Source: a virus
IMG/VR virus record: IMGVR_UViG_3300005618_000005
Location: 1-52,277 of that record
Length of the DNA stretch: 52,277 nt
Strand: one strand, 5' to 3'
This document shows positions 4,209-47,877 of this stretch, piece by piece. Numbering within the stretch: position 1 is the first letter of the stretch; the number at the start of each line of letters is the position of its first letter. The translations under genes were made by a program, and so were the position numbers. The notes under the pieces were generated by a model. It did no database searches and had not been told where the DNA came from. It was given only the letters and a program-made list of their open reading frames with translations.

Positions 4209-5350
4209 TAGGGGATGGGATAATATTTCCCGTCTTTATGATAAGCGCGGTTGCCCTTGGCGTCCGTGTAAACGGGATAGTCTTTGCCGTCGACCTTCAC
4301 CGTTTTCGTGTTTGGCGGAGCAGCGGGCGGCGCTGGCGCTGGAATTGGTTCGGAGCTTAAAAGACCGGAGACTTTTTCCTTCACCCCAGTAAATGCGCGC
4401 TGGAGCATATTGGGCGGCGCTGGCGGCGGCTCCGGATCGTAAGTGTTGGCCATGTCTGCCCGTGTGGCGAGGTAGCGGTTTCGCGCACTGAGCTGGCGGT
4501 ACGTCGTTTCATCGCCCTCCGCCTGGGCTTTTTTCATCGCGTCGATATTCTGCAGAAACTCCTTTTTCGAGTCCTCCTTGAAGTGTCCGTCTTTGGCTAG
4601 CACGTCGATTAAGAGGCTCGTGATTTTCGGATCCGCTTTCGGATCGAGTTGCCGCTTCGTGATCTCGTTCGCCAATGAAATAGCCGTGCCCTCACCCTTT
4701 CCGCTACGCTTAACCGTGCGCAGAAAATTGGCGGTTTCAGTATCGCCAGCTGCTTCGGCGTCGACCGCGGCCTGGGCGTCTTTCATCTCGGGGGTTTGCT
4801 TCTCCGCGTTGGTCCGTCGCGTCTCGTCACCCTTCGCCTCAATCTCGGCGAGTCTTCCCTCTGCCCGTAATTTTTCGCGCTCCAAAGCCTGCTGTCCTTT
4901 CGAATTCAAAATCGCACTGTTATGCTGTTGGAGCTGCATATTCTGAACTGTCGAAATAAACGGCTTCCCCTCCGGGATGAGTTCAAAATATGAATACTTC
5001 TGAGCGATCTGCGAAAGGGCTGACGCCTGTTCCTCGTAGGTCGGCAGCTGCATTGCCTTTTGGTATTCGTCGCCCGCCTCTTTCGACTGAGCGCCAAACT
5101 GAGTGCGTAGCTGTTGAACGAGCCGCGCATTATAGAGCGTGCCCTGGGCAACCGCCAAATCGGCCTGAGCCTTTGCCTCCATCACGGGCTTTCCGACCTC
5201 GTAAATCTCGCGTTGCCGGTCCGCCATTTCTTGGCGCTGACGCATCATTTGCCCGCGGTCCATGATGGACTGCATTTGATTCGCGCCCGAGAAAGCGGCG
5301 TCGACGATGCCACCGGGAGGAAGGTAAGGAGTGAAGGTTGCTTCGGCCAT
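4208..5350 (-). CDS. Probable internal virion/ejection protein, coiled-coil (380 aa)
   Basis: This soluble protein is rich in Ala, Gln, Glu and Lys. Predicted long helices cover about residues 25-210, including a run of charged heptads around LEREKLRAEGRLAEIEAKGDE. A Pro/Ala-rich linker follows at about 300-345. The C terminus is a compact Tyr/Lys segment (KDYPVYTDAKGNRAYHKDG). It is coupled by TAATG to the giant virion gene downstream and lies 2 bp after another probable ejection gene. Position and composition match internal core proteins of podovirus-like phages. No catalytic motif is visible, so the assignment rests on context. Confidence 0.7.
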   Translation of the reverse strand: MAEATFTPYLPPGGIVDAAFSGANQMQSIMDRGQMMRQRQEMADRQREIYEVGKPVMEAKAQADLAVAQGTLYNARLVQQLRTQFGAQSKEAGDEYQKAMQLPTYEEQASALSQIAQKYSYFELIPEGKPFISTVQNMQLQQHNSAILNSKGQQALEREKLRAEGRLAEIEAKGDETRRTNAEKQTPEMKDAQAAVDAEAAGDTETANFLRTVKRSGKGEGTAISLANEITKRQLDPKADPKITSLLIDVLAKDGHFKEDSKKEFLQNIDAMKKAQAEGDETTYRQLSARNRYLATRADMANTYDPEPPPAPPNMLQRAFTGVKEKVSGLLSSEPIPAPAPPAAPPNTKTVKVDGKDYPVYTDAKGNRAYHKDGKYYPIP

Positions 5351-5352
5351 GG

Positions 5353-6312
5353 CTAGCGTTTCTTGAGTTCGTCCATGAGGTGCCGGATGAAGCCCTTTGT
5401 CTTTTCGTCGCCCGAAATCCTATCGGCGATCTCCGGACCGTGCTGATGATAGAACGTCAGGAAGTCCGCGGACGCGTTGCGGAGCATCCAGGAGCGAAAC
5501 TCAATCCAGTCCATACCCTCGCCGTAAACCTCGCGCGCCACCCAACAGAAGGCGCCGTAGTTGCCGACCGAGCTAGCCGTTGAACTAGACGAAGGCAGAC
5601 TCGCACCGGCACCGCCGCTATTATAACTTGAGCCGTACGTCGCTGCCGCCCCCGCGAGTTTCGAAATTCCGGCCCACGTGCTATCTGTCGCGTATTGGCT
5701 CGCCGCGTTCTGCGCATTTATCGAGGCCTGGTTGGCACTCATGTTTGTGGCGCTGGCTCCCAAGGCCTGCCCAGGAGTCGAGTAAAACGACAGAGGCGAA
5801 AGAGGACTGACCTTGCCGAGGCCCGCGAGTGTTCCGAGAATGGATTGAGTGTTGGCGATATTCTGTTGCCCGTAGGCCAACTCGTTTACGCCGAAGTCGC
5901 GGAGTAAGGAATAGTCGGCGGCTTGCCCGCGCACACCCGTAGAAATTCCGCGCTCCGCCGCGAGACGGGTGAGATTATCGGCAACGCCCTGGGGTAACGC
6001 GTAGGGGTCGGCTGAAGCGTTTTGCGCCAAGGTGGCGAGGTTACCTTGGATTTTGCTGTAGCCGGGAATAGCTTTTTCAAGGAGGGAAAGATTTTCCTTC
6101 GCGTTAAACTTGTTCGCAGAGTGGAGAAGAGCCTCGATGTCCGGCTCAGCCTGGACGTTCGCCACAGCGGAGTCTCGAGTAACCGCGTTTATATCGAGGC
6201 CGGGCGCCTGGCGATTCGCGGCAGCTTTAGCATTTTGACCGGATTGATATGTGCCATAAGCGGACGCTCCGGCGGCGACCACAGCGGCGGCGGCTGCCCA
6301 TACTTCTGCCAT
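5353..6312 (-). CDS. Probable internal virion protein with C-terminal CWVAREVYG domain (319 aa)
   Basis: I chose the ATG at 6312 because the protein then begins with an Ala-rich hydrophobic stretch (AAAAAVVAAGASAYG) followed by TYQSGQNAKAA, common in phage ejection proteins. An upstream in-frame extension would overlap the preceding gene. The middle is Ala/Asn/Ser-rich and low in charge. A Ser/Gly linker near residue 255 leads to a compact C-terminal domain, CWVAREVYG...W..FR.W.L..A...F..FY. I know this motif from the C termini of other phage structural proteins with no defined activity. It may span or perturb the host envelope during DNA entry (inference). Confidence 0.72.
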   Translation of the reverse strand: MAEVWAAAAAVVAAGASAYGTYQSGQNAKAAANRQAPGLDINAVTRDSAVANVQAEPDIEALLHSANKFNAKENLSLLEKAIPGYSKIQGNLATLAQNASADPYALPQGVADNLTRLAAERGISTGVRGQAADYSLLRDFGVNELAYGQQNIANTQSILGTLAGLGKVSPLSPLSFYSTPGQALGASATNMSANQASINAQNAASQYATDSTWAGISKLAGAAATYGSSYNSGGAGASLPSSSSTASSVGNYGAFCWVAREVYGEGMDWIEFRSWMLRNASADFLTFYHQHGPEIADRISGDEKTKGFIRHLMDELKKR

Positions 6313-6931: not shown

Positions 6932-7743
6932 CAGTAAAGGAAGCCCATGAGCCAAACCGTTCCAGTCGTGCCTGAGGCAGTGGAGGACGCCGAATAGTAA
7001 ATGCTATTCGTCGGCAGCGGGAGCACGCCGGAATTTTGCGCGGCGGCACTTGTCCGGGAGTCATCGCGAGTCCCCTGAGCCAGGGCTTTGAGAAGCGCGT
7101 TGCTCGAGGTCGAAACCGTGTTGTCTTGAGTGACTCGAAGGGCAACCGTGTAGGTCTGCGGTCCGCCGAAACCTTGATCCGGGAAGGCAACCTCCACGGC
7201 AATATAAGCGCCCTTTACTGTGGTGAGTCCGGCATCTGCAATGAAGTCCGTCAGGTCGACCTCGGTCCACGAACTCACCGAGCCACTGATGCTCGCGAGC
7301 TGCTGATAGGATTCGAAAAAGAAGCTCTTGTCGTAGCTCGCTCCAGGAACCGGTGCCGGAGCGGCGGCCTGCCATTCGGCCTCGGATTCCACCCATGCAT
7401 AAAGGCCGGTGCCGATAAGGTGGAATAGCTGGCCGTCTTGTGGAGTGAGGATCGCGTCGCGGGCCGCCAGGTTGCCCACGGTTGCCTTCGCTGGCAGGAC
7501 GACCCAAGCGGTGCCGTTCCACGTGTACCAGCCCAGCGGCGTGCCGCTGCCGTCCGTTTTAAACCAAGCCTTGTCACGGTCTTCGGCGGCTGGCTCGGTC
7601 GCGCCGTAGTTCACGCCATTGAAGTCCTCCAGCCCCGTGATCTCCATGTACTGGGCGATCAGGTCCAGAAAATCTTGGACGGTGCCCGGGAATTCTGTTC
7701 CATCCGGAACAAGAAGGGCCTGGAGATTAACGTTTAGAGCCAT
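6931..7743 (-). CDS. Small tail fibre/appendage-like protein (270 aa)
   Basis: The start is ATG 7743 (MALNVNLQALLVPDGTEFPGT), 9 bp inside the end of the upstream glycosyltransferase gene. The first 70 residues resemble N-terminal attachment regions of phage fibres (VQDFLDLIAQYMEITG...YGATEP). Next come beta-rich WYTWNGTAWVVLP and DGQLFHLIGTGLYAWVESEAEWQ segments, typical of fibre shafts. The last 110 residues are Ser/Thr-rich and hydrophobic and could form a trimeric beta tip. No enzymatic motif is seen. Host-receptor binding is inferred from composition and from neighbouring tail genes. Confidence 0.65.
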   Translation of the reverse strand: MALNVNLQALLVPDGTEFPGTVQDFLDLIAQYMEITGLEDFNGVNYGATEPAAEDRDKAWFKTDGSGTPLGWYTWNGTAWVVLPAKATVGNLAARDAILTPQDGQLFHLIGTGLYAWVESEAEWQAAAPAPVPGASYDKSFFFESYQQLASISGSVSSWTEVDLTDFIADAGLTTVKGAYIAVEVAFPDQGFGGPQTYTVALRVTQDNTVSTSSNALLKALAQGTRDDSRTSAAAQNSGVLPLPTNSIYYSASSTASGTTGTVWLMGFLY

Positions 7744-8417
7744 GACGTGTGTGTCTGGCAATACCTCAAGGGTGTACCGTTGAGCAATCCTAAAGGGGCA
7801 TCAAACACCCTAGGGCCTTTAAATTCAGGTTCCCACGGTCGACGATGGCGAAACGTGGGATTTGCGCACTGACCTAAAAGACCGCACGAAAAGTCCGGGC
7901 GGTCGTGAATAGAGATTCCACGCTCTCGCGCGACATGCAGGACCATTTTGTCGTCAACGGTCTTGAAGGCCGAGTTAATAAACTCGGGGCTAAGCATCCA
8001 CCCGTTAGCGACAAATTCTTCGGCGGTGGCGCGGGTAAAGCCTAGCGCTGCCCCATGTAGAAACATAGCCGGATACTCCGGGGTGCCTATATTCCGGTAG
8101 CACCCAAAGAGCCCTTCACTAAAGGCGGGCCTATCCATCCGTCGAAGGCACTCCGTGTCTGGGTCGACTCGCATCACGAAGGGTTGCCTGGATCTCGAAA
8201 GGCAGACGGTCAGGTAGCGGTGCGTCCAGAGGCCGCCAAACCTATCTTCCTTTGCGTGGCTAAACGCGATCTCTTCAGCGCCCTGAACGCCGTAGGGAGT
8301 ACCTCCGTCATACCCAAGGAACACGTCGGCGTCCGGGTAGACTTCTCGCAATCGGGCGACCGTCGCTAAAACCTGGTGCGGCGGCTCGCGGAAAACATAC
8401 ATGAAGAAACTTATCAC
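7734..8417 (-). CDS. GT-A-fold glycosyltransferase-like protein (227 aa)
   Basis: The GTG start at 8417 overlaps the TGA of the tail-nozzle gene (GTGA). The sequence has a nucleotide-sugar-transferase look: an early beta-alpha unit (DVFLGYDGG), RYLTVCLSRSRQPFVMRVDPDTECLRR with a D-x-D (DPD) metal-binding motif near residue 100, and a later acceptor-side region with HGAALGF and DDKMVLHVARERG. It is separate from the main modification cassette at 20.7-25.2 kb and sits among tail genes, so it may modify a tail or host surface glycan (inference). The sugar specificity cannot be read. Confidence 0.65.
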   Translation of the reverse strand: MISFFMYVFREPPHQVLATVARLREVYPDADVFLGYDGGTPYGVQGAEEIAFSHAKEDRFGGLWTHRYLTVCLSRSRQPFVMRVDPDTECLRRMDRPAFSEGLFGCYRNIGTPEYPAMFLHGAALGFTRATAEEFVANGWMLSPEFINSAFKTVDDKMVLHVARERGISIHDRPDFSCGLLGQCANPTFRHRRPWEPEFKGPRVFDAPLGLLNGTPLRYCQTHTSWL

Positions 8418-15527: not shown

Positions 15528-16709
15528 TTAATCCAGGGCGAGCGTGATGATGGAGAAGCCGTTGTCCGGGAAGATGGGCTTGGCTGCGACCTGGATGTCG
15601 AAGCGGAAAAAGCCCATGTTACCGAGCTTGTTGTAGCACATATCCGGATTGTTGATCCATCGGACGTCGCCCGCGTAGGTGACGGGGTCAAAGCGCGCCT
15701 TCGCGAAACTAGTCGGCGAAGTCGGACGGACCCGCACCTCGTAAATGTTGCGCGCGGTAACCGAGACGACCTCGTACACCGCTGCCCCACCCGGCGAGGC
15801 CGTGGTGCGGTATGCGGGATTCGGGATAGCCTTGCGGCCCTTGGTCGCGTCCACGTTGAGGAACGGAGGAATCCAGCGCATGGCACCGTCGTAGCGGTAC
15901 GGATACAGCTCCACGTTCGGGATGTAACCATAGACGGCCATATTGATACCGCGAGGCGTGAAGTTCTCGAATGCGTCGCCCCAGTTCACCGTGTCGCGTA
16001 CACCCTGATCGACCTGCCACAGCTTGCGCTTGTAGCCGGGACCGACGTTGAGGGCGTAGGCTGGCATGCCACCGGCCTGACCGACCGCGTATTCGACACC
16101 GCCGACGCGGGCAAGGCGATCGTAAAGAGGATCCAAGTGATCCCACTCGAGTTCGACCGTGGGGGCCGTGAGGCCTGCAAACGGATCGTATCCGGCGTTC
16201 ACTTCTTCGTCGAAGGAGCCGTTAGCCAGGGTCGACAGCTTCGTGTCGATCATGCCGATGTTCTGAGCCATGTACCACGAAGCCCACCAGCGGGTCGTGA
16301 ACTCGGAAAGACCGCGCTGCTTATTGGCAATCTGCTGTTCGGCCTGGTAGCTGAACTGGAGATCGGTCAAGCAAATGACCTCGGACTCAAACGCCTTAGT
16401 CATCAGACTGTAGTCGCGAGTCGTGTATCCAGACTTAACTACGGTCGCATCGACCAAACAGGCGTTACCGGTGCCGCCCGAAAGAGTGATTGAGCCCATG
16501 GCCGTGCCAATGGGTTCTTCGGTGGGCATTTCATAGGTCGTGGAGATGACCGAAGGGGTTTGGCCTTCAGAAAGATCGTACTCCAACCGTGGGAACATCG
16601 ACGTGTAGATGTTTTCTTGCCAAAACTTGGCGTACATCTGTTTGTCGAACTGATTCTTGGTCTTAACCATCAAGGAGTTAAGATCCTGTAGCGAAGGGCA
16701 ATATGCCAT
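15528..16709 (-). CDS. Major capsid protein (393 aa from the favoured start)
   Basis: By position (directly after the scaffold) and composition this is the major head protein, with the long beta/alpha mixed sequence of an HK97-type coat. Examples are QDLNSLMVKTKNQFDKQMYAKFWQ near the N terminus and FFRFDIQVAAKPIFPDNGFSIITLALD at the C terminus. The frame is open back to a TTG at 16877. That TTG lies on the T-tract of a terminator, so I prefer the ATG at 16709 (MAYCPSLQDLN). No Shine-Dalgarno is visible before either. Terminators on both sides and a palindrome at 16849-16866 suggest it is its own transcription unit. Confidence 0.85.
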   Translation of the reverse strand: MAYCPSLQDLNSLMVKTKNQFDKQMYAKFWQENIYTSMFPRLEYDLSEGQTPSVISTTYEMPTEEPIGTAMGSITLSGGTGNACLVDATVVKSGYTTRDYSLMTKAFESEVICLTDLQFSYQAEQQIANKQRGLSEFTTRWWASWYMAQNIGMIDTKLSTLANGSFDEEVNAGYDPFAGLTAPTVELEWDHLDPLYDRLARVGGVEYAVGQAGGMPAYALNVGPGYKRKLWQVDQGVRDTVNWGDAFENFTPRGINMAVYGYIPNVELYPYRYDGAMRWIPPFLNVDATKGRKAIPNPAYRTTASPGGAAVYEVVSVTARNIYEVRVRPTSPTSFAKARFDPVTYAGDVRWINNPDMCYNKLGNMGFFRFDIQVAAKPIFPDNGFSIITLALD

Positions 16710-16848: not shown

Positions 16849-16866
16849 CCAATGGTATACCCTTTG
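16849..16866 (-). promoter_or_regulatory. GGTATACC palindrome variant upstream of the capsid gene
   Basis: Minus strand reads CAAAGGGTATACCATT. The centre GGTATACC is palindromic, and one arm (CAAAGGG) matches the stronger copies at 26644 and 28547. It lies just downstream of a terminator and upstream of the capsid start. A TTGTTT sits 16 bp upstream of TATACC on the minus strand, a possible -35 partner. Confidence 0.5.
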
Positions 16867-18555: not shown

Positions 18556-20619
18556 TTATCGAGCCTGCATCGCCGGGTTGGCGTAAGGCAGGATGTTAGG
18601 CGGTCCGCCCATTTGGCCGTTTTGCTGCTGCGCCTGTTGCTCTTTTTGCAGACGGGTCAGAATACCCGTCACCATGGATTTAACTTGGCTGAAGCGCGGC
18701 CATAGCTGTTGGTAGGCGGCTTTCTGGGTTTCGTCGTTCACGAGGAAACTGAAGTGCTGCCCCGTGTGCTCCATCGTAATAACCATCGCAGGCACCTTCT
18801 CTTTATCAATTTGCCCGCCGTTTTGCTGGTATTGCTGAAGGATCGCCTCCAGGGGCTTCAGGTGTTCGTCGATGTGCTCGGCGTGTGCGTCGGACGGATC
18901 GACCGGCAATGGCATGCCCTGGCTAAAGTCGCCGTTCTCCATCATCGCTTGGCGTCGTTGCATCGGTTTACTTTCTTGCCCCTCAGGCAGAAGCGCCTTG
19001 CTGACCGCGTTGGCGCCGAACTCATTTGCGATAAATTGCTCATCGAACCAGCGCGTATTCCAACCGGCTCGGCTCGTCATCCCCATGACCTGCTGGAATT
19101 TCATCGCACGCGCGGCCGGGTTACTCATCCCTGCCGATGTACCGGTGCGGGTAACAATATCTCCGTCGTGAATAATTTCCTTGGGCACCCCGCGGTCAAT
19201 TAATCGCTTCACGAACTTTTTTGCGTCCTCGTTCGTATTGCCCCTACGGCGCAGCCGGGCAAAACACTGCGAAAAGATGTTCTCTCCCACCTGGGCCAAA
19301 TAGATCGCCATCGAGCTCTCGGTAACGTCGCCCTGCATAGCGGAGAGGATCTTCGCTTGGGTTGCCGTATCCGTTTCCTCGATCTGCTTTTGCTGTTCGC
19401 GGTAAAGGGCGTTATTACCCGCCTGGTTTTGCTCGAGCATCTCTATGATAGAGAGCCCCTGACTAAACTGGGGATAGGTCTGCATCTGCGTCAGGCCCTG
19501 CGGAAAGACGTTCACCGGCCCGTAATTCTCGATTGGGGGCGACTCGTCCGGCATGTCCGGAGTCCGGGTGAAATTCATCGACATGGCCATTGAGGCACCG
19601 TCGCACACCCGCGACTTCATCCGATTCACCAAGACCGAAAAGTGATAGTTCTTAATCCCAAAACCCTTGATCGAGTGGACCATCGCGTCGGTTCCAGTGT
19701 CGTACCAAACCACCCCGAGGAACTCTTTAAAGTTTTCGGCGTATTCCTCCTTTCGATACAAGAACTCGTTGCCGGTCCCGGTCACCGTGAAAACGTAGCA
19801 GCCGATTTTCCCGTTGAACTGCTTTACGTAGAGGTAAACGACCTCAAGGGGCTGGAATTTTGACGACACCGAAATATCGTTATTAACCAGCATGTCCTGG
19901 TACTTCGTGAAATCGCGGCCGTCCCAAGAGGTGCCATCTTTGCCGTAGACTAAAGCGGCCTTCACTGCCTGGGAGTTCCAGCCGAGATACTCCGCGTTCT
20001 TCTGATTCTTTGGCGTCCGGATTTTGTTATAGAGCTCCGCCCCACTCATGTCTCTCACCACGGCCACGCACTCCCATTTATCTTGGTCCATGTGGCAATT
20101 TTTCGGGAAGTAAACCCGCTGGACATTGATCGCTTCGAAACGGGGATTATCCGGATCAGGCCACGCCACCATGCCCGGCCCAAAGTCCACGAAGTTTTTC
20201 GCGAACCGCATATAGTTCACGAAGTAGCTTTGCCCGTAGTCTGCGATCCATTGGTCAAAGCACTCCGCCAACGCCACCTCCCACCGCGAAGAGTCCGGAG
20301 CACGTGAGTCAATCGCAAAACTTGCCGCGTGGGGGGCACCGTGGACCGCCCGCCAGTAGGGCAAGAGTGTCCGGTCACGCGCTGCCTGAGCGTCACCAAA
20401 ATTGACGTTGGTTTGCCAGTTGTTGCCCTGCTTTTCCCAGTCGTGCTGACTAAACGGCCGACCGCCTTCTAATTGATTGCGGGTCTGGACGTAGGTCGCT
20501 GCCCGCTGGGAGTTATAGTAAACAAAGGTCTCGTAGAGAGAGCGGGCGGATTCGACATCTTTGATTCGCCGTTCCTCCGCGACATCGTCGAATTTTTGGG
20601 AGTCGATGAGAGTATCCAT
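18556..20619 (-). CDS. Portal protein (687 aa)
   Basis: The length and features fit podovirus-type portals. The N-terminal region is helical with aromatic-rich segments (RTLLPYWRAVHGAPHAASFAIDSRAPDSSRWEVAL) and FVDFGPGMVAWPDPDN. The wing/stem region contains YPQFSQGLSIIEMLEQNQAGNNALYREQQKQIEETDTATQAKIL, typical of the helical portal core. The C terminus is Gln-rich and helical (QKEQQAQQQNGQMGG). It forms the dodecameric DNA entry channel at one capsid vertex. The gene starts 10 bp after a GGGTATGCCCC element and begins the tight portal-114 aa-scaffold cluster. Confidence 0.85.
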   Translation of the reverse strand: MDTLIDSQKFDDVAEERRIKDVESARSLYETFVYYNSQRAATYVQTRNQLEGGRPFSQHDWEKQGNNWQTNVNFGDAQAARDRTLLPYWRAVHGAPHAASFAIDSRAPDSSRWEVALAECFDQWIADYGQSYFVNYMRFAKNFVDFGPGMVAWPDPDNPRFEAINVQRVYFPKNCHMDQDKWECVAVVRDMSGAELYNKIRTPKNQKNAEYLGWNSQAVKAALVYGKDGTSWDGRDFTKYQDMLVNNDISVSSKFQPLEVVYLYVKQFNGKIGCYVFTVTGTGNEFLYRKEEYAENFKEFLGVVWYDTGTDAMVHSIKGFGIKNYHFSVLVNRMKSRVCDGASMAMSMNFTRTPDMPDESPPIENYGPVNVFPQGLTQMQTYPQFSQGLSIIEMLEQNQAGNNALYREQQKQIEETDTATQAKILSAMQGDVTESSMAIYLAQVGENIFSQCFARLRRRGNTNEDAKKFVKRLIDRGVPKEIIHDGDIVTRTGTSAGMSNPAARAMKFQQVMGMTSRAGWNTRWFDEQFIANEFGANAVSKALLPEGQESKPMQRRQAMMENGDFSQGMPLPVDPSDAHAEHIDEHLKPLEAILQQYQQNGGQIDKEKVPAMVITMEHTGQHFSFLVNDETQKAAYQQLWPRFSQVKSMVTGILTRLQKEQQAQQQNGQMGGPPNILPYANPAMQAR

Positions 20620-20623
20620 ATTA

Positions 20624-20641
20624 CAGGGGCATACCCTTTAG
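20624..20641 (-). promoter_or_regulatory. GGGTATGCCCC palindrome variant upstream of portal
   Basis: On the minus strand AAAGGGTATGCCCCTG ends a few bases before the portal ATG. It is a one-mismatch relative of AAGGGTATACCCTT. Between it and the next gene upstream, the minus strand carries a cluster of TAGGGT/TAGGGC words (about 20655-20697). Confidence 0.45.
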
Positions 20642-20689: not shown

Positions 20690-21262
20690 CTATCGCACCC
20701 GGCGTGCGACAAAAAGGATTGTGTAGTCCTCCGGGACCACGTCGGTGAACTCGTCTTTTAGGATCTCGTAGTGTCCAAAATACTGGGCAAACACGGCTGA
20801 AAGTTCCCCCACGTAAGCTTCATGCCGGTGCTCACAGTTAGGCGGCTGCCCCTTCTGGATCGCTGCGTACCACCGCTCTTTGTCGGGCACCAAAATAATC
20901 ATGTGGCCGCCGACTTTAAGCACTCGGTTCCATTCTTTTAAGACCGGTATCCAGTCAAAGACGTCCTCCAGGAAGTGGGACGAGTAGACGAAATCAAGGG
21001 ACTGCGACTCGAAGGGGAGTTTGTCCGCGAACCCGCGGAGATGGAGCGGTCCTTTGGGCGGTCGCCCGTTCGAATACTTGGAAAACTCCGGCTCCGGGAG
21101 GTCGTAACTGATAGCCCAGGGCACCACGGGTACCCCCTGCGAAGCAACGTCCACCCCTACCCCGGCGCAATAGGGTGCGGTCGCATAGCGGTAGCGCTCC
21201 GTTTCTGAATCACACGCCGCGAAGCCGCGGGCGGTCGGCTTATAGAATTCTTTGTAGCTCAT
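20690..21262 (-). CDS. Class I SAM-dependent methyltransferase (type 11-like), 190 aa
   Basis: ATG 21262 overlaps the stop of the upstream methyltransferase (ATGA). Motif order fits Methyltransf_11: an early GVGVDVAS (SAM-binding loop, G-x-G-x-D), then GFADKLPFESQSLDFVYSSHFLEDVFDW (motif II/III with the acidic and aromatic residues), then EWNRVLKVGGHMIILVPD. An acceptor-side tail follows. It is the last gene of the sugar-modifying cassette before the portal, so a sugar O- or N-methyltransferase is a reasonable inference. The acceptor is unknown. Confidence 0.82.
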   Translation of the reverse strand: MSYKEFYKPTARGFAACDSETERYRYATAPYCAGVGVDVASQGVPVVPWAISYDLPEPEFSKYSNGRPPKGPLHLRGFADKLPFESQSLDFVYSSHFLEDVFDWIPVLKEWNRVLKVGGHMIILVPDKERWYAAIQKGQPPNCEHRHEAYVGELSAVFAQYFGHYEILKDEFTDVVPEDYTILFVARRVR

Positions 21263-21873
21263 GCGTATTTCTCCGGGGTTGTGCAAAGCATCATCGTTCC
21301 AAAACTCGCCAAGGGGATGAGGTTCGCATCCTTGATCGCGGGCAAAACTCCCGGCCCCCAGTGCGGATAGAAATCGTCGAAGAGGAAATTCTGGATGCGG
21401 AGTTTAAGCCCAAGGTCGATGTCGGCCTGGACTCCGTCGAGGTTGTGGTTGCCGTCCACGTACATCAAATCGAAGCGGTGACCCTTGAGGTGGAGGCGGA
21501 GCGGCTCGGGGTCCTTCACGGTGTCGCCAGAAATAAATTCGAAAGCGTCTTTATGCGTCGCCTTCACGATTGCCGCGGCCTGCTTAGTCTGGAGGCGCGT
21601 GGAATTGTCGATCGAGACGACATGATCCACGCCGAGCCCAAAGAAAATGCGGGCAGAGTGGCCGAGGCAAAAGCCTACTTCGAGGACGTTAAACCCATTC
21701 GTGCGGCCCAAAACCGCCATCGCGCCCCGGAATTGGCGAATCGAGTGCGGGCCGCTGTGAAAAGGCGTTGTCTCCGCGCGGAGAGGAAGGTCGCTCGTCC
21801 ACTTGCGAAAGAGTTCGTCGTCCGAAGGCTGGCGCAGGAACACGCGATCAATCATCCACTGTTCCGGCGTCAT
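21259..21873 (-). CDS. Class I SAM-dependent methyltransferase (Methyltransf_24-like), 204 aa
   Basis: The start at 21873 gives an ATGA overlap with the glycosyltransferase upstream. The motif NVLEVGFCLGHSARIFFGLG (motif I, E-x-G-x-x-x-G) is followed by HVVSIDNS (acidic end of beta 2) and RFDLMYVDGNHNLDGVQADIDLGL (motif IV/V, with DGNH shared with the cephalosporin-hydroxylase/Methyltransf_24 group). The product would be a cytosolic enzyme of the modification cassette. O-methylation of a glycan is the likeliest class of reaction but is not proven. Confidence 0.8.
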   Translation of the reverse strand: MTPEQWMIDRVFLRQPSDDELFRKWTSDLPLRAETTPFHSGPHSIRQFRGAMAVLGRTNGFNVLEVGFCLGHSARIFFGLGVDHVVSIDNSTRLQTKQAAAIVKATHKDAFEFISGDTVKDPEPLRLHLKGHRFDLMYVDGNHNLDGVQADIDLGLKLRIQNFLFDDFYPHWGPGVLPAIKDANLIPLASFGTMMLCTTPEKYA

Positions 21874-22631
21874 AATTGGTATCCTCGGTCTTTTAACCAT
21901 GGGTGGACGATTTCGGGGTGCTTCCCGGCGAAATCACGAAGTGGAGCACCGTCGAAAAAGTCGTAGTCGTCCCAACGGGCGTATTTCTCTTGGGCCGTGT
22001 GGATGCGCGGGTCCACGCTCCCAAAAAAGCAGTTTTGAACCACCCTACTTTTGGCCACGAAGGCATCGGGCAAACGGATCATCCCATAGTGATAAATATG
22101 CAGCCCCGAGTAGACCTCGGCCCGGTCGCGAATATTTGGATGCACCGCGGGCTCGGGTTCGTCGGAAGGCAAATAGAGTTTCGTTGGACCAAGTCGCGCC
22201 ACCATTTCCCCGCAGCATTTGTTCCAGGGCACAAGGTGCTGCGCATCGCGCCAAAACGTATAGCGGCGAAACATCCCGGCCGTTTCGTCCTGCATCGCCA
22301 GTTTGATCGAGGAGTAGCTTTCAGGCCCGAGGACCTCGTCAGCGTCCAACTGCAAAAGCCACGCCTCGGGGTCCAGGCGCTCGCGCGCGTAATTAAGCGC
22401 CTTCACCCACCATTGCGGGTCGTTGTGCGGTTTTTCCCAGGGCTGGCGCCGCAGCCTCACCTTGTGCTCAGACCCCAACTTTTGCTCGAGGTCCTCCCAT
22501 GAGCCGTCGTCGGACTGCATGTCACTTACTACGACGGTGTCGCAAATAGGCATAAGGGAACGCGCCGCCTCAACCGTCATATAGTCGAGGGAGCGGTGAT
22601 TGCGGGAGACGACCAATCCAACAAGGTTCAT
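21870..22631 (-). CDS. GT2 family glycosyltransferase (253 aa)
   Basis: The GT-A fold is seen in LVGLVVSRNHRSLDYMTVEAARSL and TVVVSDMQSDDGSWEDL, followed by WLLQLDADEVLGPESY with the D-A-D-E metal and nucleotide-sugar motif near residue 95. Trp-rich acceptor elements follow (FWRDAQHLVPWNKC). The family transfers sugars from nucleotide donors, usually inverting. ATGA overlaps on both sides place it in one translational chain with the GT2-GT9 fusion and the methyltransferases. Confidence 0.85.
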   Translation of the reverse strand: MNLVGLVVSRNHRSLDYMTVEAARSLMPICDTVVVSDMQSDDGSWEDLEQKLGSEHKVRLRRQPWEKPHNDPQWWVKALNYARERLDPEAWLLQLDADEVLGPESYSSIKLAMQDETAGMFRRYTFWRDAQHLVPWNKCCGEMVARLGPTKLYLPSDEPEPAVHPNIRDRAEVYSGLHIYHYGMIRLPDAFVAKSRVVQNCFFGSVDPRIHTAQEKYARWDDYDFFDGAPLRDFAGKHPEIVHPWLKDRGYQL

Positions 22632-24151
22632 TTTACGGTCGCTCCTTCGAGAAGAGTGTCGACATTGGCGGTCACGTATTCGGGTTTGATCGAGAGCATG
22701 GATTCGCCGGTCGTAGGAATGGAGACTTGCGCGGCCGTGAAGTGGCGGGCGCCGGACTCCGCGATTCTCGGGTCACCCTGGACGAAGGCCTTTGGACTAC
22801 CGTCCGTCATTATATACTCGGGCAGCGTGCATCCAAAAAGCCCCAGGCTCGGCGTCCCCATCGCCTGGGCCACATGGAGCGGAAAACTGTCCAGGCCGAT
22901 AAAGAGCTGGCACCTGGCGAGCACGGCCGCCAATTGGAGCGTGTCTGTTAGCCCGCGCAAATCCCGGTCGCTAATGATGGGCGTCAAGTCCGAGTGGCCC
23001 ACCAAAACCACTTTCATGTCGTGCTCTTTTTTCACGTGAGCGATGACGTCATTCCACCGCTCCTTCGGCCAATTTTTCCCGGGCCAGGTCGTGGGTCCCG
23101 CGTGGATCGCGCACCAATCGCCTTTCTTAAGCAGTGAATCCGCGTACTTTTTGTGGAGCTCGTTTGGATAGAGCCGCGTCACGAACTTATCGATTGAGAG
23201 TTCTGCCGCGGCGGCGTAGGCCGCGCAGATGTGAGTGCGGATTTTACTCTCGTAACTCATGTCGAGATTAATGACGCGCATCTCGTGGTTGCGGTCGATC
23301 TTCGTCGCGGCCCGGCTCACGTGCGGGTTACCCGCGAAGGTCTCCGGAAAGGCCGTCTCAATGAGAATTGGCGAAAGGGGATTTTCCCGGGCGAGTCGCT
23401 CCAAGATCGCCGTCACGAGGACCACGTCACCGCGAGCCGCCCAGCGCCGAATGAGAATAGGGAAATCAAACTTCCGAATCCTAAGATAGTGGTTCCACTT
23501 CTTGCGGAGAACAGCGTGGTTTTTCGCCTGGATTTGATTGATGTTCGGGATGTGGGCCGAAGTCGCGGCTCTTTGATGGCGAAGCGGCAAATCCACCTTG
23601 TGAAGGGTGTAGCCCAGTTTGCGCAGGCGAAGCGAAAGGTCGGAGTCCTCTCCGTATGCGAATTCCAAATACGGAGCGAAGAGGCCTTCGCGTTTTACGA
23701 TTTCGGTTTTGCACATGAGGCAACTGCCCTCCAGGTACTCGAAATTCCCACCCTGGCGCCCGTGAAAATCATTGGTGAGCATTTGGCAGCCACCGGAGAG
23801 CCCCGCCAAGGCCGCCTTCGGGAACTCGCGGAACGGTTTCTCCATCGCCTCCAGCCAACCCGGCGGCACTTGCGTGTCGTCGTTTAGCATGACGAAAAAC
23901 TCGCTATCGGTGAGCGCCAAGGCCCGCCGGTTGGGTTCAATAAAGCCCTCGTTTTTCGGGTTGTGAATCACCGTCACCCGGCCGGGATGCTCCGCGGCCA
24001 CTTGGTCAAAGAAGACGCCGACGTCGTGCGGCGACCCGTTGTCGGTTAAAATCAGGTACGTGTCGGCCGGTGAATAATCGAGGACGGAGCGAATGCAGCC
24101 TCGCGCCAAATGCAGCGCTTTATAGCAAAGAATGGAGACCGTGAATTTCAT
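22628..24151 (-). CDS. Two-domain glycosyltransferase: GT2 fused to GT9/heptosyltransferase-like (507 aa)
   Basis: Residues about 1-230 are a GT2 domain: FTVSILCYKALHLARGCIRSVLDY, LILTDNGSPHD, FFVMLNDDTQVPPGWLEAM (N-D-D metal motif) and FAYGEDSDLSLRLRKLGY (acceptor-side E-D). From about 235 on, the sequence becomes GT-B GT9-like: GDVVLVTAILERLARENP, CAIHAGPTTWPGKNWPKERW, MKVVLVGHSD, LFIGLDSFPLHVAQAMGTPSLGLFG. The latter is the nucleotide-binding signature of heptosyltransferases. One polypeptide thus carries two different folds that could add consecutive sugars. It overlaps its neighbours by 4 bp at both ends. Confidence 0.85.
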   Translation of the reverse strand: MKFTVSILCYKALHLARGCIRSVLDYSPADTYLILTDNGSPHDVGVFFDQVAAEHPGRVTVIHNPKNEGFIEPNRRALALTDSEFFVMLNDDTQVPPGWLEAMEKPFREFPKAALAGLSGGCQMLTNDFHGRQGGNFEYLEGSCLMCKTEIVKREGLFAPYLEFAYGEDSDLSLRLRKLGYTLHKVDLPLRHQRAATSAHIPNINQIQAKNHAVLRKKWNHYLRIRKFDFPILIRRWAARGDVVLVTAILERLARENPLSPILIETAFPETFAGNPHVSRAATKIDRNHEMRVINLDMSYESKIRTHICAAYAAAAELSIDKFVTRLYPNELHKKYADSLLKKGDWCAIHAGPTTWPGKNWPKERWNDVIAHVKKEHDMKVVLVGHSDLTPIISDRDLRGLTDTLQLAAVLARCQLFIGLDSFPLHVAQAMGTPSLGLFGCTLPEYIMTDGSPKAFVQGDPRIAESGARHFTAAQVSIPTTGESMLSIKPEYVTANVDTLLEGATVK

Positions 24152-25230
24152 AGGGTGGCGAGCATTCGGTCGAGGGTCGCAATGATCCTCTCGGGCTGGA
24201 TCCGAGCCATCGGTTCACAGCGCTGGCTTTTGTTACAGGGGCCGTTGAAAGGGAAGTTGGGCGCCAACTGGCTCCCGTGGTAGAAACAGGGCGCCAAGTC
24301 GCAGCCTCCGTGCCCCTGGATCGCTTGCACCGTGGGGGCGTAGGCCGTTCGCAGAGTCCAGGGGAACGCGGCGTAAAGCCCCAGGGCGGGCATCTGAAGA
24401 GCGCCCGCAATGTGAACCATCACCGAGTCGGGGCCGAGGACCACGTCGCATGCGGTCATGGCGGCAACCGACTGCCTAAACGAGAGGTTCTCGATCATCA
24501 GGTTTCGCACAAGCGGCGTTGAGCGAGTCTTCACCTTGTAGGGTGTTCCAAGGAGGTAAACCTCCCGGCTCTTTTGAGCCAGGCGGATAATCACCTCGGT
24601 CATCAAGTTGCCGGGATAGGTGCGCGCCCTGCCACTGGCCTCTACCTGGATTGCGATCCGCTTGGCGTTGGTGCGAGGGAACTTGTCCAAGGCCCAAAGC
24701 TTTTCCTCCTCGGTCAATTCGTAGCGCATCGCCTTCTCGTCCAGGTGGGTGAGCCCGATACGTTTTGCCACCACGTCGACGGCATGGAGTTTCTCTGCCT
24801 CGGGGTTACCCTCGATCACGTTCTCTAAGAAAATCCACGCGTGGTATTCCTCGGCGTCGTCCAAGGAAATCGGATACGATACGATCTTATCCACCTCGGG
24901 GTTAGCGAAGAGGATGTCTTGAAACATTGAATACACGCACACGTGAACTTCCGCCGTGGGCCAGCGGCGCTTAATCTCGTGAATCGAGGGCGTGCAAAAG
25001 AGGAGGTCGCCAAATCCGCCGGGGCGAATAATGAGGATCTTCTTCCCGTTCCAGTCCTCCTTTTCGTCGAAGGGCCGCGGGTTGCCATCCAGGTAATTCA
25101 TGGTCGTGGCGCCGCGGTGCCCCACCTGGATATAGGTGGCCCCCGCCATGTCCTCCACCAAGTATTTCCCAGCGGGCCAGCCGCCTCTGGCTCCGAGGTC
25201 AATCCCGTCCCGACTCGTTAGAATATGCAC
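24148..25230 (-). CDS. GT9 heptosyltransferase-like glycosyltransferase (360 aa)
   Basis: This is a GT-B fold. Residues 1-60 are an unusual N-terminal extension (LTSRDGIDLGARGGWPAGKYLVEDM). The core begins KKILIIRPGGFGDLLFCTPSIHEIKRRWP, the hallmark of ADP-heptose:LPS heptosyltransferases. The donor-side motif is CDVVLGPDSVMVHIAGALQMPALGLYAAFPW. A Cys-containing tail (GGCDLAPCFYHG...CNKSQRCEP) is seen in GT9 relatives from phages. The actual donor need not be heptose. It heads the ATGA-linked cassette and is separated by 5 bp from the Cys-rich gene upstream. Confidence 0.87.
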   Translation of the reverse strand: MHILTSRDGIDLGARGGWPAGKYLVEDMAGATYIQVGHRGATTMNYLDGNPRPFDEKEDWNGKKILIIRPGGFGDLLFCTPSIHEIKRRWPTAEVHVCVYSMFQDILFANPEVDKIVSYPISLDDAEEYHAWIFLENVIEGNPEAEKLHAVDVVAKRIGLTHLDEKAMRYELTEEEKLWALDKFPRTNAKRIAIQVEASGRARTYPGNLMTEVIIRLAQKSREVYLLGTPYKVKTRSTPLVRNLMIENLSFRQSVAAMTACDVVLGPDSVMVHIAGALQMPALGLYAAFPWTLRTAYAPTVQAIQGHGGCDLAPCFYHGSQLAPNFPFNGPCNKSQRCEPMARIQPERIIATLDRMLATL

Positions 25231-25235
25231 GGAGT

Positions 25236-25868
25236 TTAAAAGGGCAAATACGCTTCGCTTGCCGGGTTATTCCAACACCACAAGGGGTAAACTAAATCGC
25301 GGCCCTCGTCTGCTTTCTCGATCACGACCCGCGGCATGTTTACCTTTGCTTTCAGCCCACAGCCACAGGCCGCGCAGATTTCCAGGCCGCCCACCTGGCG
25401 GCGCGCCGGGATGGCCGCGTTGATCAGGTGGTAGAGCGTGGTGCAACCGGCGCAGCCCTCGGCCTTCATATTGAGCGGGCACGACAGACAAATATTCGCA
25501 CGCCGCGTCACCTCAGGCTCGGCCACCATTTCGCCGTGGCCCTTCACAAACTCGAGAAACCCCTTCGTGAACCCAACCGCCATTTCGGAATCCAAGTTGC
25601 GGGTGTAGTCGCGGCGGATAGGCCGCCAGTCCTCACCCTTATTCGGGCGGCAGTGCTCGGGGCCAATGCGGTTGCAGATTTGCTCGTGAATATCCTCCAG
25701 GGCTTCGTCGGGCGTCGCGCGCGGGAGCTCGCGGTAACGGCGATGCTCGGCGATTTCCTCGGCCATCTCTTTTAGGCCTTGGTCGCCCGTGAACCATTTG
25801 CGCGTCTCCTTCTGGAAATAAATCCAACCTCCCGGGGGCTGCTGACTGGGGATCTTAAGATACGCCAT
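25236..25868 (-). CDS. Cys-rich, probably metal-binding protein of the modification cassette (210 aa)
   Basis: Cysteines are arranged as CLSCPLN, CAGCTTLYH, CAACGCGLKAKVNMP and LWCWN over residues about 125-200. This implies two zinc (or iron-sulfur) sites. The N-terminal half is helical and charged. I have seen this Cys pattern beside GT9-type genes in phages but cannot give a function. It overlaps the XRE-like gene upstream by 14 bp and lies 5 bp before the GT9 gene. It could be a cassette scaffold or an accessory to an enzyme. The assignment is structural only. Confidence 0.72.
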   Translation of the reverse strand: MAYLKIPSQQPPGGWIYFQKETRKWFTGDQGLKEMAEEIAEHRRYRELPRATPDEALEDIHEQICNRIGPEHCRPNKGEDWRPIRRDYTRNLDSEMAVGFTKGFLEFVKGHGEMVAEPEVTRRANICLSCPLNMKAEGCAGCTTLYHLINAAIPARRQVGGLEICAACGCGLKAKVNMPRVVIEKADEGRDLVYPLWCWNNPASEAYLPF

Positions 25869-26643: not shown

Positions 26644-26663
26644 CACAAGGGTATACCCTTGTG
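26644..26663. promoter_or_regulatory. Perfect 20-bp palindrome CACAAGGGTATACCCTTGTG
   Basis: Sequence 26644-26663 equals its own reverse complement. It sits in the 83-bp gap between the terminase stop and the 26633 start. Its centre contains TATACC on both strands. It is either an operator for a dimeric regulator or a late promoter core. With no spacer it would not form a good RNA hairpin. Confidence 0.75.
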
Positions 26664-26716: not shown

Positions 26717-28504
26717 TTACCAGACCTCGACGTCGACGTATTCTCGCTCGTAGAGGCGCGCCGCTTTCTGGGCACGAAGCCGCTGAGCGTGCCATTTCTG
26801 GCTGACCGGCAAACGCTCGTCTTTGCTGGCCTGCAGCGCGAAATCCAGCACCAGGAGTTCCGAGAACTGGCAATACGCGTCGCCGTTGTCGGGCGAGCGG
26901 CCGAGCCGCTTCTTGAGTTCATCCTTCGTTTCGACCTGGGAGAGTTTGCCCTTGGTGAACTGTTTGTTCTCATAGCGGCGCACGTGAAGATCATCGAGCG
27001 TCTTTTTGTTCAGCCGGTCCAGACCGCCGAGAAGGCCGTCGTACGCCAAGTAGGAGGCTCGGAACCAGAGTTCCGATACGAAATAGCGCACGACGTCGCA
27101 CGCTTTATCGACCTGGCCTGCCCGCAAGGGCCGCTCCGTCGCCTCCCCGCCGTAGTTTATTCCCACTACGTCCGGCGACCACTCCTTTTGCAAAATCGCG
27201 TAGACGCCGCGCGCGTTGCCCGTCTTGTCCTGGATGAAATTCCGTGGTGAAACACCCCAGAGAGCACATAGGCGCATTACCTCATGGGCGACTTGGTAGT
27301 CCTCAGGCTCAAGGCCCTGACCTTGCTTCACCTGGATTTTCACCGACTCAACGCCATTGATCGCCATCCGGCCGTCGCGGAGTTTTCCTTTTTCGCCGCG
27401 GTGAAGAACGCAATCGTCGTAACTGAAGGCCGGGTCCAGTGCGGCGCAGGCCTCGGGCGCAAAGTCGAACTGTAAGATTTGGCGGGCTCTCTCGATCGCG
27501 GCCGTGGGCCAGACGCGCGAGACAATGCCATCCGGCGGGAAAAATCCGCGGACGTAACTCCACCACTCTTTGGAATGCTCGCCGAACTGTTTCCGGATCT
27601 CCTCGATCTCGGTCGGCCCGAGCATATAGGCGTAACGCTTCTTCCCGTCGATCAGCCCCGTTTTCATGTTCGGGTTTTGAAGCCCGTCCAGGTGAATGCA
27701 GATGCCGCCCTGTTTCGTTTTCCAAAAGAGGTCCGTGTCGTGGATGGATGTCCAGCCTCCTATCGGCTCACAGGCCTTGCCGAAATCGGTGTACCGGTCG
27801 ATGGCGTTCGACATGTCCACGATCTTCACGTCCGGGTCGGTGCGCACGTTGGCGAAGGTCTCGTAAATCACGGTCGGCATGTCGTCGGCCTCGTCCAGAA
27901 TGAGGCGGCGCCTGGGCGCGTGCTTACCACGAATCCGGCCTGAGGCGTCCGCGGTGCGGCTCGTGGCCATGCCCTCGATAATATATTTATCGAACTCGTG
28001 GGTCTTCATTCCTCCGGCGGCCTCGACGTCGAACATGACGTTCATCCGGTTACTGCTCGAGTAAACCTTGAGCATCTGCCGAACCTCGGGCGCCACCGAC
28101 TCGTGAGCGCGCATGAGGTCGCCCCACATGCGAAGGCGAAGGCCGTCCGCCGTGACCGTCGTAAGGGACGTCATCGTCGTGAAGGGCTCGGCTAACCAGT
28201 CGAGGTAGGCGCAAAACGCCAGGTTGTAGGTCTTGCCCGCCGCACCGTGGCCCATGATCGAAATCCGCGAGTACTCACACCACGCCTCGCAGATAATTTT
28301 ACTCCAGTCGTTCCAATCGAAATGCGGCCAAACGATCCGCCAGGCGTTCCGGAAATGCTTATAGGCTCCGAGTCCGCCGTCCTCGGGCTTGCGGTTCTCG
28401 CGGTAGCAGGCGAGTTCGAGCGGGAGGAGCGATGCGCCCTTTGGCCAGAAAGACCCATAAATGAGATCATGCCCTGGGGGCGGTTTTTTCCAGCCGTCAC
28501 TCAT
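26717..28504 (-). CDS. terL: Terminase large subunit (595 aa)
   Basis: Residues about 80-95 contain RISIMGHGAAGKTYNLAFC, a Walker A (GHGAAGKT). Walker B is RRRLILDEADDMP, followed by a motif III-like SNAID. The C-terminal nuclease half has ACAALDPAFSYDDCVLHRG (first acidic cluster), NFIQDKTGNARGVY (second) and GRSPDNGDAYCQFSELL (third), as in RNase H-fold headful nucleases. Length is normal for the family. It cuts and pumps concatemeric DNA through the portal. Its small-subunit partner lies 5.5 kb away at 34010, an uncommon separation. Two palindromes and a hairpin precede the gene. Confidence 0.92.
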   Translation of the reverse strand: MSDGWKKPPPGHDLIYGSFWPKGASLLPLELACYRENRKPEDGGLGAYKHFRNAWRIVWPHFDWNDWSKIICEAWCEYSRISIMGHGAAGKTYNLAFCAYLDWLAEPFTTMTSLTTVTADGLRLRMWGDLMRAHESVAPEVRQMLKVYSSSNRMNVMFDVEAAGGMKTHEFDKYIIEGMATSRTADASGRIRGKHAPRRRLILDEADDMPTVIYETFANVRTDPDVKIVDMSNAIDRYTDFGKACEPIGGWTSIHDTDLFWKTKQGGICIHLDGLQNPNMKTGLIDGKKRYAYMLGPTEIEEIRKQFGEHSKEWWSYVRGFFPPDGIVSRVWPTAAIERARQILQFDFAPEACAALDPAFSYDDCVLHRGEKGKLRDGRMAINGVESVKIQVKQGQGLEPEDYQVAHEVMRLCALWGVSPRNFIQDKTGNARGVYAILQKEWSPDVVGINYGGEATERPLRAGQVDKACDVVRYFVSELWFRASYLAYDGLLGGLDRLNKKTLDDLHVRRYENKQFTKGKLSQVETKDELKKRLGRSPDNGDAYCQFSELLVLDFALQASKDERLPVSQKWHAQRLRAQKAARLYEREYVDVEVW

Positions 28505-28546: not shown

Positions 28547-28566
28547 CCAAAGGGTATACCCTTGTG
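28547..28566. promoter_or_regulatory. Second AAGGGTATACCCTT palindrome
   Basis: The core AAGGGTATACCCTT (28550-28563) is identical to the centre of the 20-bp palindrome at 26644. The flanks match on one side only. On the minus strand a TTGTTC lies 18 bp upstream of TATACC, a plausible sigma-70-like spacing for a terminase promoter. Confidence 0.7.
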
Positions 28567-36092: not shown

Positions 36093-36368
36093 ATGCCTAA
36101 TCAATACTCTTTCGACGGTCACGGAATTAACGACAAGGGGAGCGAATTCACCCCGCGTCTCGCCACGCTCACCAAGGAGGGCCACGAGCGCAAAGTCGGC
36201 CCTTTGTTCGCTGCTGCGCCTGACATGCTCACCGCGCTCGAATTCGTCGTTGGCCTCACCAACGGCAAAAACCGTTTCGCGCCTAAACTCTCCATGCAAG
36301 ACGCCAATCGGGAATGGGCAAAATTCGTCAAGATGGCTCGCAAGGTCATCAGCGAAGCCAGGGCGTAA
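36093..36368 (+). CDS. Small protein with LFAAAPDMLTALE motif (91 aa)
   Basis: The sequence includes LFAAAPDMLTALEFVVGL, a helix that marks a widespread but uncharacterised small phage protein type, and a basic C-terminal helix. The leader is CTTTCTCACTTCAATTTAT with no Shine-Dalgarno. It is separated by 29 bp from its upstream neighbour. Confidence 0.66.
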   Translation: MPNQYSFDGHGINDKGSEFTPRLATLTKEGHERKVGPLFAAAPDMLTALEFVVGLTNGKNRFAPKLSMQDANREWAKFVKMARKVISEARA

Positions 36369-36399
36369 CCACTCTTTCACTACAGCCTTTCCAGCTCTT

Positions 36400-36861
36400 A
36401 TGAAGCAATACGAAATCAAACTCCAGTACCTTTGCGTTTCCGAGTCCGAACACGGCAAAGCTCCCCACGTGGGCCGCGCTGACCAAGTGCCCGGCTATAT
36501 GAAGGGCGCTTTCGACGAACGCCCCGAGCAAGAAAGTTTTTGGGTTATTTGCCTCAATCGCAAAAACCGCGCTCGCGCTCGCCATTGCGTCACCCTCGGG
36601 ACGCAAACCAACTCGCTTGTTCACCCTCGCGAAGTCTTCCGCCCGGCAATCCTCAGTAACGCGTGCGCTATCATTTGCGTGCATAACCATCCCTCAGGCG
36701 ATCCAACACCCTCGCAAGCTGACATTCAGGTTACGCGCCAACTTCGCGACGCTGCAAAAACCGTGGGCATAGACCTGGTTGACCACGTCATCATTGGCGA
36801 GAAGAGCGAGGACCCGCAAGGCCTCGGCTATTACTCCTTTCGCTCCGCTGGGCTCATCTAA
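36400..36861 (+). CDS. radC-like: RadC/JAB-domain protein (153 aa)
   Basis: The JAMM metalloprotease-type motif is present: an upstream acidic residue in ESFWVICLNRKNRARARHCV and the core ICVHNHPSGDPTPSQADIQVTRQL (H-x-H-P-S-G...S-x-x-D), then VDHVIIG and YSFRSAGLI. This is the RadC (DUF2466) fold common in mobile elements, of unproven biochemical role despite its name. The N terminus (about 30 residues) is unlike full RadC. The leader is pyrimidine-rich (CCTTTCCAGCTCTT). A terminator follows. Confidence 0.88.
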   Translation: MKQYEIKLQYLCVSESEHGKAPHVGRADQVPGYMKGAFDERPEQESFWVICLNRKNRARARHCVTLGTQTNSLVHPREVFRPAILSNACAIICVHNHPSGDPTPSQADIQVTRQLRDAAKTVGIDLVDHVIIGEKSEDPQGLGYYSFRSAGLI

Positions 36862-44755: not shown

Positions 44756-45163
44756 TCATTTTTTCTTGGCTAGGGCGAAAAAGACGAATTCTCGGTCATG
44801 CTTGGTCTGCAGTTGCCCGGCCTTGGCCAGCCGGGCGATGGTCTTTCGCAGCCGGTGGTTATCGACCAGGAAGGGATATTTAAGCGCCTGAAGGGCGGCT
44901 CGCACGTCTGCGTTCGATAGCCACTTTCCATCGGCAAAAACCTTCTTTAGAAGGGTGTCCTCCATGAAGTATTTCGGCGCCCTTTTCTTGTCCGCGCCGA
45001 GGTCCACAGGGAGCACTAGGCGGCTGGTCGAGGTGGGGAAATTCGTTAATTCCTCGAGGGCTTTCTCGGTTCTTCTAAGACGGGCGAGCCGAGCTTCCAT
45101 CTCGGCAATCTCCCGCCGGGTTTCTGCGAGCGTTGTCTGATAGGTAGTGGTTGTTTCATTCAT
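44756..45163 (-). CDS. Coiled-coil plus winged-helix-like protein (135 aa)
   Basis: Residues 1-40 form a coiled coil (TLAETRREIAEMEARLARLRRTEKALEEL). The C-terminal half, ADGKWLSNADVRAALQALKYPFLVDNHRLRKTIARLAKAGQL, has the helix-strand arrangement of a winged helix. ATG 45163 overlaps the integrase TGA (ATGA). Co-expression with the integrase suggests a regulator or accessory factor. It is not a typical small excisionase. Confidence 0.68.
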   Translation of the reverse strand: MNETTTTYQTTLAETRREIAEMEARLARLRRTEKALEELTNFPTSTSRLVLPVDLGADKKRAPKYFMEDTLLKKVFADGKWLSNADVRAALQALKYPFLVDNHRLRKTIARLAKAGQLQTKHDREFVFFALAKKK

Positions 45164-46416: not shown

Positions 46417-46447
46417 ATACCCCCCTTTTTCCAACTTTTTCTTCCAA

Positions 46448-47540: not shown

Positions 47541-47877
47541 AATGCTTCTTTCGTCTAAAGAGCGCGTGGAGGTCAAAGGCCTCGATGCCTCCGACGCCAT
47601 GCAAAAATGTCTCGAGCGCTACCCGGGAACCACGATCAAGGAATGTTATTCCGGCTACAAAGAGACCCACTACTGCCACACGGGCCAGGGAACGATCGAG
47701 ATGGCGCCCGCCTGGATCGACTACGAAGTGCCCCCTCATTTCCCCTACCTGCCCGAGGACAAGGGTGTTCCTGAGATGTCCGCCTATTTCGACTTTATGG
47801 TCCAGGTTCCGGCCGCCCAGGAGCCAGCCAAACCCCGCAAGCGCCTTGTTGGCGCCAAAGAGAGGACCCACGCATGA
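47527..47877 (+). CDS. Unknown protein preceding the recombination genes (116 aa)
   Basis: ATG 47527 gives MLTYRMLLSSKERVEVKGLDASDAMQKCLERYPG, an alpha/beta pattern, then a Tyr/Pro-rich segment (YEVPPHFPYLPEDKGVPEMSAYFDF) and a basic tail. It overlaps the RecT-like gene by ATGA. No family was recognised. Confidence 0.64.
   Translation: MLTYRMLLSSKERVEVKGLDASDAMQKCLERYPGTTIKECYSGYKETHYCHTGQGTIEMAPAWIDYEVPPHFPYLPEDKGVPEMSAYFDFMVQVPAAQEPAKPRKRLVGAKERTHA

Follow-up and report, generated by a model that had tools for sequence, protein, structure and literature searches.

Predicted glycosyltransferase and methyltransferase genes in the head operon of an uncultivated phage may form a virion-glycosylation module

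Cluster O mycobacteriophages carry an O-methyltransferase and three glycosyltransferases (GTs) between the portal and the protease, and the authors who described them suggested a role in capsid modification (PMC4351075). Glycosylation of capsid and tail tube has been reported for Corndog, Che8 and Myrna (Freeman et al. 2023, as cited in PMC11600133, PMC12363180 and PMC12619734). Protein A064R of PBCV-1 combines two GTs and a methyltransferase on one polypeptide, which serves the capsid N-glycan, and this glycan is made in the cytoplasm (PMC7019647).

The stretch of DNA analyzed here, referred to as the window, is a 52,277-base virus record from IMG/VR. Its head operon lies on the minus strand and begins with the gene for the large terminase subunit (TerL, 595 aa; 26717..28504). 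Reading down from position 28504, TerL is followed by a 167-aa protein, an HTH protein, a Cys-rich protein, a GT9-family glycosyltransferase, a GT2-GT9 fusion, a standalone GT2-like protein, two SAM methyltransferases (MT1 and MT2) and a protein of 687 aa in the position of the portal (18556..20619, minus strand). The initial annotation had placed a set of sugar- and methyl-transferring enzymes between TerL and the portal, and all of these genes were found there on the minus strand. It had also described the genes as translationally coupled; this was borne out by four ATGA overlaps of stop and start codons (24151/24148, 22631/22628, 21873/21870 and 21262/21259), which join the genes from GT9 to MT2 inside the head operon. 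The open reading frame listed for MT1 begins at 21900 and overlaps the GT2 gene; the coupled ATG is at 21873.

This arrangement resembles that of the Cluster O phages Corndog and Firecracker, in which overlapping methyltransferase and GT genes for soluble enzymes adjoin the portal in the virion operon. The window likewise holds at least one methyltransferase and at least two GTs, co-oriented and next to the portal in the virion operon, the portal label in the window being positional. The two systems differ in that the genes follow the portal in Cluster O and precede it in the window. Furthermore, Cluster O has neither a GT9 nor a GT-GT fusion and only one methyltransferase, whereas the window has two. 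Virion glycosylation is reported for Cluster O, whereas we infer it for the window. Searches for homology to Firecracker gp33-36 using BLAST, hmmsearch and hhalign were negative (probability 1.6% or less). Because no Firecracker enzyme is homologous to one from the window, the relation to Cluster O is one of functional analogy and not of membership. A064R of PBCV-1, likened here by description, is similar in being a virus-encoded, cytoplasmic enzyme that unites several GT domains in one polypeptide together with methyl capping. It differs in that it comes from a eukaryotic virus, its GTs are rhamnosyltransferases and its methyltransferase is part of the same protein.

A profile search of the cassette proteins, which had been proposed as a check, placed the GT9, both halves of the fusion, MT1 and MT2 above the curated Pfam cut-offs and the standalone GT2 below. 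The GT9 (360 aa, GTG start; 24148..25230, minus strand) matches PF01075 with 51.6 bits against a cut-off of 22. Its nearest solved relative is LPS heptosyltransferase II (1psw, 1.2e-12), and its conserved residues include GD75, D268 and four C-terminal cysteines. It shares the GT9 fold and a catalytic-type Asp with the LPS heptosyltransferases WaaC and WaaF; unlike them, it has a conserved N-terminal leader of about 60 aa, which is common to the phage GT9s. A Pfam search with this leader returned no match, and its identity with a known phage domain is unsupported. The four cysteines had raised the idea of a TibC-like protein heptosyltransferase; this found no support, as the profile matched only WaaF/WaaC-type entries and one GT9, and no TibC. 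GT9 kin use ADP-heptose, and this would imply a host of the Gram-negative type. A host could not be named: the one match, in a Verrucomicrobia MAG contig with 35% portal identity and no cassette match in the stretch read, was too weak.

The fusion protein (507 aa; 22628..24151, minus strand) matches PF00535 over residues 5-131 (57.4 bits) and PF01075 over residues 338-447 (59.4 bits). From the alignment, the GT2 domain spans about aa 1-229 (24151-23465) and the GT9 domain about aa 232-501 (23458-22649). The motifs NDD and GEDSD of the GT2 half are invariant in the relatives, GD242 and D421 are conserved in the GT9 half, and the GD and D..H motifs of both GT9 domains in the window are invariant across relatives. 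Judged from these sequences, the earlier description of a two-fold enzyme is sound: the protein appears to be two complete GTs joined together, each with its catalytic-type residues conserved. The standalone GT2-like protein (253 aa; 21870..22631, minus strand) reaches only 20.7 bits with PF13704, under the cut-off of 27.5, and carries a DXD motif (LDADE, within QLDADE) that is invariant in four relatives.

Both methyltransferases score above the cut-off for the class I SAM methyltransferase family. MT1 (204 aa; 21259..21873, minus strand) matches PF13578 with 30.3 bits against a cut-off of 26.3 and has conserved VLEVGFCLGHS and FDDFY motifs. MT2 (190 aa; 20690..21262, minus strand) matches PF08241 with 39.8 bits against 21.2, is 72-90% identical in the relatives and has a solved relative, 1vlm (2.9e-6). 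The glycine loop of MT2 is atypical; the four relatives all carry either DVASQG or DIASQG there, and because of this unusual loop its activity is less certain. No transmembrane segments were found in the cassette enzymes, all of which are soluble by prediction. Searches for relatives in cultured phages found none for the GT9, the fusion or the Cys-rich protein, and only weak, partial matches for the methyltransferases.

A protein of 227 aa encoded in the tail module (7734..8417, minus strand) is in all likelihood a sixth enzyme, a GT-A-fold glycosyltransferase, as judged from its structural model. It has no Pfam match. The AF2 model is of moderate quality (pLDDT 68, core about 70-90) and gave 264 PDB matches at E<=0.001; among the matches listed, all are GT-A glycosyltransferases. 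A DPDT motif is conserved. The protein evolves fast, since its counterpart in relative L003 shows 32% identity, against 78% for the neighbouring gene and 95% for the portal.

We then considered the head genes that surround the enzymes. The window's own TerL has no match in PHROG; its identification comes from its relatives, three out of six of which match phrog_2, the terminase large subunit (best 2.5e-17). TerL is 27% identical to terminases of Streptomyces phages. Searches of PHROG, Pfam and PDB with the portal-position protein were all without a match, so that a homology-based portal label failed and the label is by position only in the window's clade: the gene comes after TerL and the Cys-rich protein and before the scaffold-like p422 and a capsid-like gene (15528-16709). 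A search with the portal found 206 relatives in IMG/VR, and 80 loci of these were returned. TerL, the Cys-rich protein and the portal are co-oriented and usually touching in 80/81 loci that have both of the latter two. In distant members (portal 25%) the Cys-rich gene adjoins the portal directly, with no enzymes between. The Cys-rich protein (210 aa; 25236..25868, minus strand) had been counted as the first member of the cassette. This assignment does not stand; the protein belongs to a core trio with TerL and the portal, and the enzymes are cargo placed between it and the portal. It has 10 invariant cysteines in an alignment of 32 sequences and a confident AF2 model (pLDDT 89), for which fold searches against PDB and viral structures gave nothing at E<=0.001. 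The protein appears to be a packaging or head factor that is as yet uncharacterised; across a broad clade of uncultivated phages, its gene almost always occupies the middle position between TerL and the portal.

The same genes are found in the same place in three relatives, L003, L004 and L005, whose portals are 95%, 94% and 62% identical to that of the window; L005 lacks MT1. In L003 an open reading frame for an HNH/AP2-like endonuclease (4934-5422) sits between the Cys-rich protein and the GT9. In the window and these three relatives the set lies between the Cys-rich gene and the portal. A second group (L026, L029, L030, L031 and L034) carries a GT9 immediately upstream of TerL and on the opposite strand, accompanied by GT2-type genes wherever the sequence extends far enough. 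In the portal tree the two sister clades together form a monophyletic group (100/100). The relatives are metagenomic contigs only, many of them incomplete, and the collection searches catch close pattern matches, so that the distribution given here is a lower bound.

Next we analyzed the relationship of the phage GT9s in a tree that was built from phage sequences only, with no bacterial GT9s included. In this tree the window's GT9 falls among those of other phages (97/95). In seven loci of the same group (L009, L010, L103, L104, L107, L108 and L109) the GT9 follows directly after the portal. They include the near-identical pairs L107/L108, L104/L109 and L009/L010, and amount to about four independent cases. 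The portals of these loci match phrog_1216 in 5/5 proteins (best 6.1e-12), and a profile comparison of this portal type with the window's portal-position gene gave a probability of 0.4%, meaning that they are unrelated. The fact that the window's GT9 groups with GT9s located after an unrelated portal indicates, on the evidence of the sequences, that this gene has moved between phage lineages, in either direction, and is next to the portal in both. The portal-adjacent location therefore recurs, as the GT9s of the same group follow a bona fide portal of another type. A simple inversion of the sister clade's set as the origin of the window's cassette is ruled out for the GT9, which groups with those of unrelated phages (97/95) while the portals are monophyletic (100/100).

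In our judgement the enzymes probably constitute a phage-encoded, cytoplasmic module for glycosylation of the virion, with a glycan that is capped by methylation. The operon that encodes the head proteins would also supply these soluble enzymes, which would build a short glycan during late expression. A virion protein, namely the capsid, the portal or tail, or a tail fibre, would be the acceptor. The first sugar might be transferred by the GT9 or a GT2 from nucleotide sugars of the host, and the GT2-GT9 fusion could add two further sugars in tandem. The GT2, and possibly also the GT-A protein at 7734-8417, would extend or branch the glycan, MT1 and MT2 would O-methylate it, probably at its end, and the product may protect the particle or alter its binding. 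The timing, the donor sugars, the order of the steps, the acceptor and the benefit in this scheme are those that we infer. Late timing had been suggested before from the place of the genes. That the set sits in the head operon is correct, and it would probably be expressed late; the location does not provide a general rule, however, since the sets of the sister phages lie beside TerL on the opposite strand. Because L026-L034 carry comparable sets in this orientation, co-expression with the capsid is not a strict requirement.

One point against action on the virion is that the closest solved relatives of the GT9 are heptosyltransferases of the LPS core. The main rival reading has the enzymes modifying the LPS core, or some other glycan on the surface of the infected cell or lysogen, and so blocking the adsorption of other phages or the loss of progeny on debris. 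WaaF and WaaC, to which the GT9 is nearest among solved proteins, are soluble and act on the inner side of the membrane. In the sister clade the sets form a separate, moron-like unit on the opposite strand beside TerL, one of them with an SDR and an NAD-epimerase, and the window has a weak integrase-like (tyrosine-recombinase-like) gene at 45160-46434. However, the window genes are translationally coupled within the head operon, portal adjacency recurs in two lineages, and the integrase profile PF00589 was not found in L026-L034. The Gtr serotype-conversion operons of temperate phages are similar in that the phage carries sugar transferases. Unlike them, the window has no GtrA flippase and no proteins with transmembrane segments; as neither the flippase nor a membrane GT was found, seroconversion of the Gtr type was rejected. 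Together, these results make host-surface modification rather unlikely, and superinfection exclusion or a change of the LPS, as raised in the initial annotation, is less likely than decoration of the virion.

Decoration of the virion also has to be weighed against the idea that the genes are passenger cargo at a spot that tolerates insertions, with separate functions or none in the virion. The gap between the Cys-rich gene and the portal holds unrelated inserts, collagen-like and Gly-rich, in L029-L031, the HNH-like frame is present in L003, and MT1 has been lost in L005. In L029 (3883-9720) the inserted genes code for collagen-like proteins with GXY repeats and Gly-rich proteins, which indicates that this spot accepts varied cargo. 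Against the passenger explanation, GT2 and GT9 matches are present in 9/9 records of one portal clade (support 100/100, one change on the tree), while 13/14 outgroup records have no GT2 match and the remaining one has a weak match. In addition, purifying selection is strong, with dN/dS values of 0.03-0.17 for the cassette genes and 0.03 for the portal in comparison with L003/L004, where synonymous sites are near saturation. These values and the recurrence of the same gene order indicate that the cassette consists of maintained protein genes and not of chance reading frames. We consider the passenger explanation improbable.

Glycosylation of modified bases of the phage genome as a defence against restriction, which phage GTs are known to carry out (Pyle et al. 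2024, as cited in PMC12619734), is very improbable here, given that no thymidylate-synthase-type base hydroxymethylase was found in the window or its relatives with positive controls and that two methyltransferases with a GT9 are unlike the usual set; a search for Tet/JBP dioxygenases gave no match, and its control likewise gave none.

Residues 1-229 of the fusion, which make up its GT2 domain, share 39-46% identity with the standalone GT2s of L030 and L034 and with an L026 protein over its N-terminal half. The C-terminal domain of this L026 GT2 protein is joined to GT2_4 in L034 and to Methyltransf_24 in L030; among the other genes of L034 are an NAD-epimerase, an SDR and one that is GT32-like. 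Because the GT2 domain occurs alone, fused to a GT9 or fused to a third domain, the sets seem to assemble domains from one shared pool in varying combinations. Such reshuffling would be expected if the structure of the glycan were under diversifying selection. Tentatively, we propose a virion-glycan system that is mobile and modular and centres on a phage GT9 family with an N-terminal leader of its own; it would be exchanged among lineages with unrelated portals and would repeatedly end beside the portal. Swapping of GT and methyltransferase domains in fused proteins could then create variable methylated sugar coats, that is, phage serotypes; this broader scenario is possible, yet we would not bet on it. 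If the enzymes act on virions, sugar coats made by phages would be more widespread and diverse than is known, and the portal-adjacent GT9 family would provide a sequence handle for finding them. The uncultivated clade, which is unrelated to the mycobacteriophages, has non-homologous enzymes in a place analogous to theirs, with relatives that vary the set by domain swaps.

A palindrome, (A)CAAGGGTATACCCTTG(T), occurs in the window with 11 strand-matches, where 0.24 would be expected. Copies of it (also given as AAGGGTATACCCTT) recur just upstream of TerL, p167, the portal and the capsid-like gene. The copy of CAAGGGTATACCCTTG at 26646..26661 precedes the cassette-bearing transcript segment and another, on the minus strand, lies between MT2 and the portal (20624..20639); further copies are at 28549-28564 and 16850-16865, with weaker ones at 7767 and 34655. 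The palindrome was searched for and not found in L005 and the sister clade; it is present at the same places in L003 and L004. From its distribution it looks like an operator or promoter element of a late regulon. Elsewhere the window encodes a RadC-like JAB protein (36250-36861) and a pair of RecT and a PDDEXK exonuclease (47874-49386).
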